The translations under genes were made by a program, and so were the position numbers. This document shows positions 35,336 through 63,773 of a stretch of 64,000 nucleotides of DNA, one piece after another. This stretch comes from Paenirhodobacter populi (GTDB taxonomy: Bacteria; Pseudomonadota; Alphaproteobacteria; Rhodobacterales; Rhodobacteraceae). The notes under the pieces are model-generated. The model was given only the letters and a program-made list of their open reading frames with translations, did not search any database and had not been told where the DNA came from. How positions within the stretch are numbered: position 1 is the stretch's first letter; every line of letters begins with the position of its first letter. The stretch covers positions 124,001 through 188,000 of the forward strand of contig NZ_SAUZ01000003.1 of the NCBI RefSeq assembly GCF_004022215.1, in the 5' to 3' direction.

Positions 35336-35404
35336 TTTAACTTGCGCGATACCAAATCTGTGCCAACCTCCCCTTATCGGCAACGCATGAAAGGAGGTGG
35401 TCCA

Positions 35405-35461
35405 GTGTCTAGAGTGATATTGGAGAGAAGTGTCGGGACAGCCAGGGGGGCCGAGGCCTGA
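35405..35461 (+). CDS. 18-codon open reading frame behind an exceptionally long Shine-Dalgarno match
   Basis: GTG start at 35405, 7 nt after AGGAGG; the peptide reads MSRVILERSVGTARGAEA and ends at TGA 35459-35461. The 16 nt from 35390 to 35405 would pair with the 3' tail of alphaproteobacterial 16S rRNA over their whole length with one G-U pair. An ATG at 35388 in the same frame would add six codons. The same nucleotides also form stem P1 of the candidate RNA, so the frame may be a leader peptide or a coincidence of RNA structure. Confidence 0.35.
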   Translation: MSRVILERSVGTARGAEA

Positions 35462-35543
35462 GGGCAACCCCAAGGGTCGAGAACCCTGGCTGGGACGGTG
35501 GATCTGACCAAGACCCTAACCGGACCATCTCCGTAGATCTCGG

Positions 35544-35578
35544 GGGCCGCTGGCAAGAGCCGCGGCCCTTTCTATTTG
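35544..35578 (+). terminator. Intrinsic terminator upstream of xseB
   Basis: GGGCCGC plus GGC (35544-35554, one bulged T), loop AAGA, GCC plus GCGGCCC (35559-35568), then TTTCTATTT. This is the clearest T-tailed plus-strand terminator in the window. It separates the upstream RNA from the xseB operon, or acts as an attenuator of it. Confidence 0.85.
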
Positions 35579-39435: not shown

Positions 39436-40068
39436 TCAGCGCGCCTCATCCGCGTCCAGCAATCCTTCGGCCACGAGCCTCGCCGCCCATTCCTGCGCGC
39501 CTTTGGCGGGATCGAGGTCGAAGGTATGGACCTTCCAGCCCCGTGCGGCGGCGGCGGCGATGTTGTCGGCGCGGTCGTCGGCGAACAGGAGCCGGGCGCC
39601 TGTCAGGCCGCAATCTGCCTCGACCAGATCGTAGATGCGGGGATCGGGCTTGGTGACGCCCATATGGCCCGAGACATAGGCCCGGTCGAATTCGGTCAGG
39701 AACGGATAGGCCTCCTGCGCGAGACGGAACGTCTCGATCCCGAAATTCGTCAGGGCGAAGACCGGCACGCCCTTGGCCCGCAAGGCGCGCAGGAGCCGCA
39801 CAGACTGCGGGATCTCGGGCGAGGCCATGTGGATCCAGTCGTCATGCCAGCGCAGGATCGGGTCGTGCCAGCGGGGATAGCGGTCGGCCCAGTCCTTCAC
39901 CGTATCCAGAAACGGCCCGCCACGGTCGATCACCTCGTTCATGCCGTGGAGGTCGATTTCCGCGAACATCGCGGCACGCTCGGCGGGGGGCATCAGCCTG
40001 TCGTAATGCCGTTCGGGCCGCCATTCGATCAGCACGTTGCCGATGTCGAAGATCACCGCCTCAACCAT
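39436..40068 (-). CDS. HAD-superfamily phosphatase (YihX-like)
   Basis: 210 residues from ATG 40068 (GGGAGAAG upstream). Motif [11 protein letters not shown], motif II ALTNFG, motif III lysine in [10 protein letters not shown] and motif [11 protein letters not shown]. The pattern resembles YihX, the alpha-D-glucose-1-phosphate phosphatase, more than beta-phosphoglucomutases, but the substrate is not certain. It overlaps the YaiI-family gene by 8 bp and is the last gene of its operon. Confidence 0.83.
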
Positions 40069-40516
40069 TCTTCTCCCTTTCCGCCGCACGGGTGGTGCGG
40101 TCCAGCGCATCGAGGAAGCGCGACCTGTCGGCCTTGGAAAACGCCCGGCCGCCGCCCTGCCGGAACGGATCGGCGGAGCGCAGATCCGCCATCAGGTCGC
40201 GCGTCGCCAGCACGTTGCCGATGTTGGCGGGGGTCAGCGCCTCGCCGTCCGGGCGCAGGACGCGGGCGCCGGCCTCGACACATTTCGCGGCCAGGGGGAT
40301 GTCGTTCGTCACCACGACATCCCCCCGCCCCGCGCGTTCGGCGATGTATTTGTCGGCGACATCCGGCCCCTCGGGCACATAGACCATCGTCACCAGCGGG
40401 TTGCGCGAGGGCCTGAGCCCGCCGTTCGACACGAAGGCCAGCGCGACGCCAAGCCGCGTCGCCACGCGCTCGGCCTCGTCCTTCACCGGGCAGGCATCGG
40501 CGTCGATCCAGATCAC
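40061..40516 (-). CDS. YaiI/YqxD family (DUF188, UPF0178) protein
   Basis: 151 residues. Signature blocks: [14 protein letters not shown] at the start, [16 protein letters not shown], and [19 protein letters not shown] near the end. The fold is PIN-like; the role is unknown. Overlaps fghA by 4 bp. Confidence 0.92.
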
Positions 40517-63605: not shown

Positions 63606-63758
63606 CCCCCTCTGTCCCTGCCCTTGCGGGCGCCTGAGATCGTTATCCCTTCGGCGGGCAAATGCCCTCTCCAGAGTTCTGGCCGGAACGGTCCTTTTGC
63701 CTGAGAGTTTACCGGGGCGGTTGCTCCTTCGGCACTGGCGCGGGGCCAGCTTCTCCCG
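63606..63758 (-). promoter_or_regulatory. Tandem glycine riboswitch upstream of gcvT
   Basis: On the minus strand aptamer 1 (63758-63667) reads GGGAGAAG, then GCCGAAGGAGCAA, AAACTCTCAGGCAAAAGGAC and TCTGGAGAG. Aptamer 2 (about 63666-63606) has GCCGAAGGGATAACGATCTC, AGGC and GGGACAGAGGGG. These are the conserved cores of both glycine aptamers. In this gene arrangement glycine binding normally turns expression on. The leader ends about 64 nt before gcvT. Confidence 0.93.
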
Positions 63759-63773
63759 ATTCCGTCGCGCATC

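Follow-up and report, generated by a model that had tools for sequence, protein, structure and literature searches.

A conserved small RNA of alphaproteobacteria that appears to be translated and may be gated by ribosomes

Introduction

In Paenirhodobacter populi the interval between yhhQ, the gene for a queuosine-precursor transporter, and the isoprenoid operon xseB-ispA-dxs is predicted to encode a structured RNA. The original prediction saw in it two mutually exclusive pairings followed by a terminator, the layout of a riboswitch or attenuator of the operon, and named a free small RNA as the alternative. Leader-peptide transcription attenuators are likewise assembled from a short ORF, RNA structure and a terminator, all of which occur in this RNA. 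Hence, the locus raises the question of whether such an assembly controls the adjacent genes or does something else. Here we address it by comparing the RNA with its relatives; all positions refer to the window, i.e. the whole 64,000-nucleotide stretch of DNA that was analysed.

Results and discussion

A self-contained RNA unit distantly related to RF01867

Judging from the promoter position, the terminator and folding, the whole RNA would span 35376-35573 on the plus strand, about 198 nt. The upstream sequences of 48 Rhodobacteraceae loci (a set that omits L050 and L056, which belong to a different subtype) point to a probable promoter at 35342-35369 (+), with a -35-like TTGCGC, which is TTGACA in many relatives, a conserved spacer ACCAAATCTGTG and a -10-like CAACCT; transcription would accordingly start near 35376. 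The strong T-tailed terminator of the original prediction is present at 35542-35573 (+), its stem occupying 35542-35570 ahead of a T-rich tail, and terminator-like hairpins are found in 48/48 Rhodobacteraceae, 44/47 sphingomonad and 76/79 CC2171-type loci. The segment 35385-35578 folds at -92.1 kcal/mol, against -74.5 ± 4.7 kcal/mol for dinucleotide shuffles (z = -3.73; 0/200 as good). Overall, the RNA looks like a self-contained small transcription unit. By eye, we also noticed that many Rhodobacteraceae loci have a conserved stretch like CACNAAATCTGTG lying between the two promoter-like elements (35350-35363 in the window), which may be a regulator site.

The RNA had been called undescribed. 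This holds at the level of Rfam gathering thresholds, which it does not reach, but below them it is a relative of RF01867 (CC2171): in a permissive scan 35381-35569 aligns end to end with that model at 31.1 bits (E = 7e-5), short of the curated cut-off of 75 bits. A glycine riboswitch at 63679-63768 (-), with 60.8 bits, is the only gathering-level Rfam match in the window. Shared with RF01867 are a 5' box, a start codon, a UCN second codon and a closing helix before an intrinsic terminator. The RF01867 5' consensus GAAAGGAGGUGAUCCAGUGUCU recurs with one difference, an A to G change at 35400, and the 3' terminator, which adjoins the helix in RF01867, begins about 9 nt after the 3' arm in the window. 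In contrast, the RF01867 helix CAUUGUC/GACAAUG is absent: the window has TCTAGAGTG instead, and a Shine-Dalgarno helix (35393-35403) takes its place. The ORFs differ too, with 18 codons in the window versus 14-33 in the CC2171-type loci, 71/79 of which fall within 20-26. Taken together, these comparisons suggest that the window RNA is distantly related to RF01867.

Rfam treats RF01867 as a (Caulobacter) sRNA gene. In the literature searched we found no functional study of it, its mentions being a table of Rfam and a list of Mesorhizobium sRNAs. The former, for Rfam 15, records an improvement of its structure by one covarying pair (PMC11701678). The latter tabulates a 215-nt RNA-seq product for the Mesorhizobium huakuii locus, and gives only one of 35 non-riboswitch candidates as lacking a product (PMC5596092).

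Phyletic distribution

The family extends further than the Rfam cut-off indicates. While 9/289 class genomes pass that cut-off with RF01867, 61/289 have a match at E<=0.001. A 20-base pattern of box and start codon, with no mismatches, was found in 50/86 alphaproteobacterial versus 0/213 other genomes of a phylum sample, the class split being counted by hand. Allowing one mismatch, the pattern occurs in 95/385 class genomes (reversed control 1) and, allowing two, in 158/198 family genomes (reversed control 3); all of these are counts of pattern matches taken without inspecting each one. Among the matches listed are Sphingomonas, Novosphingobium, Bosea, Methylobacterium, Microvirga, Azospirillum, Roseomonas, Brevundimonas and Phenylobacterium. 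One genome, G048, carries two subtypes of the RNA, one CC2171-like and one sphingomonad-like (L080, L256). A record titled Candidatus Kuenenia (L158) has the same alphaproteobacterial locus as L075 (G476:C40), on a contig of equal length, and is probably a mislabelled bin.

A 16S-complementary box and an ORF of conserved length

At its 5' end the RNA bears the box GAAAGGAGGTGGTCCAG (35389-35405, +), which complements the 3' tail of 16S rRNA with one G-U pair and is predicted to be an extended Shine-Dalgarno sequence. In many relatives it reads GAAAGGAGGTGATCCAG, the exact complement of the 16S rRNA 3' end in G050 and G064, the two genomes used for this check, RF00177 having located 16S rRNA in 2/7 relatives searched; G050 carries the RNA, with the box GAAAGGAGGTGATCCA, and G064 is without it. 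In the window's genome the 14-nt core of the box occurs once, in the RNA itself, and no 16S match to the pattern was found there. The base G35389, which lies outside the search patterns, matches 16S rRNA in 59/63 loci, and the base preceding it in 10/63. Many divergent members retain only GAAAGGAGGTG, without ATCC, and therefore the full complement to 16S rRNA is not essential.

At Shine-Dalgarno spacing after the box stands a GTG, which opens an 18-codon ORF, MSRVILERSVGTARGAEA (35405-35461, +), closed by TGA. Neither the box nor this ORF figured in the original prediction. Among the loci gathered by DNA similarity or with the Rfam model, i.e. without a start-codon pattern, 57 were found to have the box, and 57/57 of these have a start codon at an identical spacing. 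Of the 28 similarity loci, 27 have the box and start with GTG (25), ATG (1) or TTG (1); the exception, L022, is without the box in its stretch, L026 was missed later by a narrower search expression, and L045 never entered. The best 30 loci of the RF01867 model start with GTG (14) or ATG (16), all at the same place. The ORF has exactly 18 codons in 45/48 Rhodobacteraceae and 43/47 sphingomonad loci, and TGA, TAA and TAG are all used as its stop in both sets. In shuffled sequence the first stop falls at 18 codons in about 2.5% of cases per locus, a figure that is not a probability for the set, as shuffling, here and for the helices below, takes no account of the common ancestry of the loci. Entry to the Rhodobacteraceae, sphingomonad and CC2171-type length sets required a start codon at the fixed spacing.

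An independent view of ORF length comes from a covariance model, R1, built from 46 Rhodobacteraceae rows and run on 40 family genomes negative for the pattern. It matched in 25/40 of these, with 28 matches in all, comprising 24 full-length loci (L262-L285) and four short, boxless ones that were left uncounted (L286-L289, one being the only match of G226). The spacer from GAAAGGAGGTG to the start codon is 1-2 bases shorter in 17/24 loci, while in 19/24 the ORF, opened by ATG, GTG or TTG, has 18 codons, a count to be read with the proviso that R1 was built from rows with the 18-codon frame and that its matches lean somewhat towards that frame. The remaining loci have ORFs of 20, 23, 24 and 26 codons, or, in L280, a stop directly after the start; for L269, L276 and L285 the reading was made by eye. 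Because the spacer shortens and yet 19/24 loci keep 18 codons, the start, the stop and the distance between them are conserved. For the translated ORF expected of a dual-function small RNA, comparison of sequences thus gives strong support (start/stop interchange, fixed length), and strongly indicates that this ORF is translated.

These observations bear directly on the proposal of a non-coding base-pairing sRNA, in which the box would serve only to pair with 16S or another RNA and the ORF would be incidental. The classification in Rfam, the Mesorhizobium huakuii product of 215 nt (PMC5596092) and the terminator-like ends would all suit such an RNA. However, the proposal does not account for starts and stops that interchange at a fixed distance, nor for indels between box and start that are tolerated while the 18-codon frame is kept, and we regard it as improbable. 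Thus, the RF01867-type family, which is filed as sRNA, looks translated. In Caulobacter two previously predicted ncRNAs are reported to be translated, their identities being given in a dataset of the paper (PMC4117421). Pos19 of R. sphaeroides is a small RNA of 219 nt with a translated ORF; it differs in the 150-nt length of that ORF and in being RpoE-dependent, and mutations of its Shine-Dalgarno sequence left reporter activity fairly high (PMC5036791).

The encoded peptide

If the ORF is translated, is the peptide the product? In Rhodobacteraceae the codon changes show a weak similarity-preserving signal (BLOSUM 0.61 observed versus 0.16 expected), and frame 2 also lies above expectation (0.29 versus -0.06). 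Similarity preservation is absent in sphingomonads (-0.66 observed versus -0.14 expected) and in the largest length class of the CC2171-type loci (-0.51 versus -0.17 expected), and the signs are mixed in the smaller CC2171-type classes. Selection at the peptide level, tried as an explanation in two tests, was hence not adopted: it was none in sphingomonads, inconsistent in CC2171-type loci and weak in Rhodobacteraceae. From these alignments, selection on the peptide appears weak or absent, and the length of the ORF seems to be kept more than the peptide.

A plain microprotein messenger, with the peptide as the product and a structure that merely tunes translation, would account for the strong initiation signals. 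It would further fit the weak peptide signal in Rhodobacteraceae, the Trp found in the ORF of 52/79 CC2171-type loci, which, judged by eye, is often part of a TW(I) context, and the Azospirillum ORFs of 57-59 codons with a signal-peptide-like start. Against it stand the missing similarity-preserving signal in sphingomonads and the largest CC2171-type class, the mixed one in the smaller classes, and peptides that look unrelated between subgroups by eye although their length is fixed within two of them. We therefore consider such a messenger unlikely; in Rhodobacteraceae, where codon change is weakly similarity-preserving, the peptide may have a role. What two lineages keep appears to be the length of the ORF rather than its peptide.

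As a separate observation, the ORFs of L136, L168, L180 and L223 (three Azospirillum records and one further genome) run to 56-59 codons with a signal-peptide-like start by eye, and in these the short frame may have turned into a genuine gene.

A closing helix that ties the initiation region to the terminator-proximal strand

The 11-bp closing stem of the original prediction is borne out: GGAGGTGGTCC (35393-35403, +), which contains the Shine-Dalgarno sequence, pairs with the anti-Shine-Dalgarno-like GGACCATCTCC (35522-35532, +), with one G-U. Its conservation was followed in an alignment (A1) of 46/48 Rhodobacteraceae loci, from which L017 and L042 were left out, their terminators lying more than 190 nt away. 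As first written, the stem is paired in 88.9% of cells; the first 8 bp are paired in 95.4%, and the last 3 bp compete with two other helices. One of the further helices in the alignment is a hairpin at the start codon (35401-35424, +; 35401-35409 with 35416-35424), with 9 pairs in 96.4% of cells. Another joins ORF codons 10-11 (35433-35436, +) to 35520-35523 (+), in 96.7% of cells; it shares 35522-35523 with the closing helix, and all 4 of its pairs have changed on both sides. The three helices together (21 pairs) are paired in 96.1% of cells, with two-sided changes in 7 pairs, a number that 0/500 shuffles reach, and slid controls attain at most 49%. Two-sided changes in the Shine-Dalgarno helix are few (one pair, 4 cells).

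The two elements on which the notion of mutually exclusive pairings was based (35439-35492, +) fared differently. The internal 9-bp stem, CAGCCAGGG (35439-35447) with CCCTGGCTG (35484-35492), and the overlapping 5-bp hairpin AGGGTCGAGAACCCT (35473-35487) are both present in the window but poorly conserved, being paired in 70.0% (289/413) and 61.9% (133/215) of cells in the Rhodobacteraceae relatives.

Other subgroups close the RNA with other pairs. In CC2171-type loci codons 3-5 pair with the strand before the terminator in 96.9% of cells, with 11 two-sided cells (0/500 shuffles); this alignment (A2) holds 60 of the 71 eligible loci (of 79), eleven divergent ones having been excluded by eye, and across all 71 the closing pairs 1-6 form in 64-66/71 and pair 7 in 56/71. 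In sphingomonads (A3, 44/47 loci) the strands CATGGTTCA (codons 3-5) and CGCTGACCATG are invariant in 44/44 and the distance between them varies widely; since both strands are invariant, this helix yields no covariation. It thus appears from the alignments that in three subgroups different base pairs tie the initiation region to the strand just before the terminator. On the same comparative grounds, a conserved unit with a closing helix and an ORF of conserved boundaries and length is strongly indicated.

Gene neighborhoods and the question of cis-regulation

Upstream of the RNA, yhhQ is present in 52/57 Rhodobacteraceae loci, some of them redundant. The downstream genes vary: xseB lies within 1.5 kb in 17/18 loci of the window's genus versus 2/39 other family loci, and arfB (RF-1 domain) follows in 28/51 non-redundant family loci. 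For loci outside the family, a crude guess of the coding strand from base composition assigns the next gene to the same strand in 51 cases and to the opposite strand in 48, the rest being undecided or too short. The RNA thus persists when its neighbor changes.

Folding of the window RNA likewise offers little by way of a switch. The mean pairing of the terminator is 0.79-0.80 in every simulated state, be it with the initiation region, the stop region or the entire ORF kept open, and, in a transcript cut before the 3' arm of the terminator, the pairing of its 5' arm is limited to a 4-bp helix and single scattered pairs. No antiterminator was seen in this folding, and in this, as well as in having no conserved downstream gene that we could find, the RNA differs from leader-peptide attenuators. 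Neither an alternative pairing that would break the terminator, on folding in the window, nor the same downstream gene in relatives was found. A riboswitch or attenuator of the xseB-ispA-dxs operon, the original proposal, is in keeping with the position and the terminator; with that terminator unaffected by upstream states, the downstream gene unconserved and the competing stems poorly conserved, we regard it as very improbable. Since the RNA persists beside other genes and no strong alternative to the terminator appears on folding, it is probably not a leader of xseB-ispA-dxs. A conserved structured RNA is present, and the other suggestion, a free small RNA, came close.

A related possibility is a terminated leader with occasional read-through into a downstream gene, arfB in many Rhodobacteraceae, in the manner of UpsM upstream of mraZ. 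UpsM, an sRNA from the mraZ 5' leader of R. sphaeroides, is likewise a terminated Rhodobacteraceae small RNA with a possible short ORF, and its read-through has been estimated at about 1 in 100; it differs in its locus and in an ORF that runs through the terminator and is reported only from R. sphaeroides (PMC5089854). The occurrence of arfB downstream in 28/51 loci, several of which have it within about 20-60 nt of the terminator, would be expected of such a leader. However, xseB rather than arfB is present at most loci of the window's genus, no match to arfB was found in the retrieved flanks of loci outside Rhodobacteraceae, the strand of the next gene is about evenly divided there, and the window RNA has no antiterminator on folding. 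Accordingly, we think a read-through leader highly doubtful.

Independently of this, arfB encodes an alternative ribosome rescue factor and lies about 195-330 nt after the box (28 Rhodobacteraceae loci within L021-L065), which places, at several loci, a ribosome-rescue gene right behind a ribosome-binding RNA.

Gating by the ribosome

The account that we prefer, with confidence about evenly balanced by doubt, is a translated, ribosome-gated small RNA whose output is set by the binding or passage of ribosomes rather than by the peptide. Here, an RNA of about 200 nt would be a tiny messenger and a structured RNA at once. Its 5' box would pair with the 3' tail of 16S rRNA and start translation of the 18-codon ORF; with no ribosome, the Shine-Dalgarno/start region would pair with the strand just ahead of the terminator, leaving the RNA closed. 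The 30S subunit would thus compete with the closing helix, and repeated translation of an ORF of fixed length would hold the RNA open with its 3' strand available, such that the output would depend on ribosome binding and passage and not on the peptide. We infer that ribosomes open the RNA and that open and closed states interconvert in cells. Gating by the ribosome is plausible, and best supported in Rhodobacteraceae.

The energetics of opening bear on this point, all values being nearest-neighbour ones with the ribosome absent. Freeing 35389-35407 in the window RNA costs 16.1 kcal/mol, and the duplex of the 16S tail with the first 15 nt of the box would yield -27.4 kcal/mol, versus -10.1 for a plain 7-nt Shine-Dalgarno sequence, AAGGAGG. 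The median opening cost is 11.2 kcal/mol in Rhodobacteraceae, where 29/48 loci exceed what the plain sequence pays, 5.7 in sphingomonads (6/44) and 3.5 in CC2171-type loci (2/76). The cost is high only in Rhodobacteraceae, so that the energy argument for gating does not carry over to the other subgroups, and on these calculations a strong closed state would be supported only in the window's family. By way of background, 75.4% of Caulobacter genes are reported to be without Shine-Dalgarno sites (PMC4117421).

As to what a ribosome-gated RNA would do, its probable role is to report on ribosomes or to respond to them, and not to control the adjacent isoprenoid genes. Having found no gene that is conserved downstream of it throughout the class, we lean towards action in trans, or towards buffering or sensing free 30S subunits. 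A more specific and only tentative extension is that it acts as an alphaproteobacterial ribosome sensor, in which the act and the length of translation are what is conserved: free 30S subunits with an intact tail would open the RNA, the ORF would time their occupancy, and the 3' strand would be shown or hidden in proportion to translation capacity. If the RNA does sense ribosomes, it would be a convenient entry point for learning how alphaproteobacteria adjust gene expression to their capacity for translation.

Finally, the wider surroundings of the RNA show one further recurrent neighbor. A DUF188 (YaiI/YqxD) gene lies near it in L031, L033, L070, L134, L137 and L171 (by Pfam in the case of L031), and in the window such a gene is found 4.5 kb downstream of the RNA, at 40061-40516 (-).
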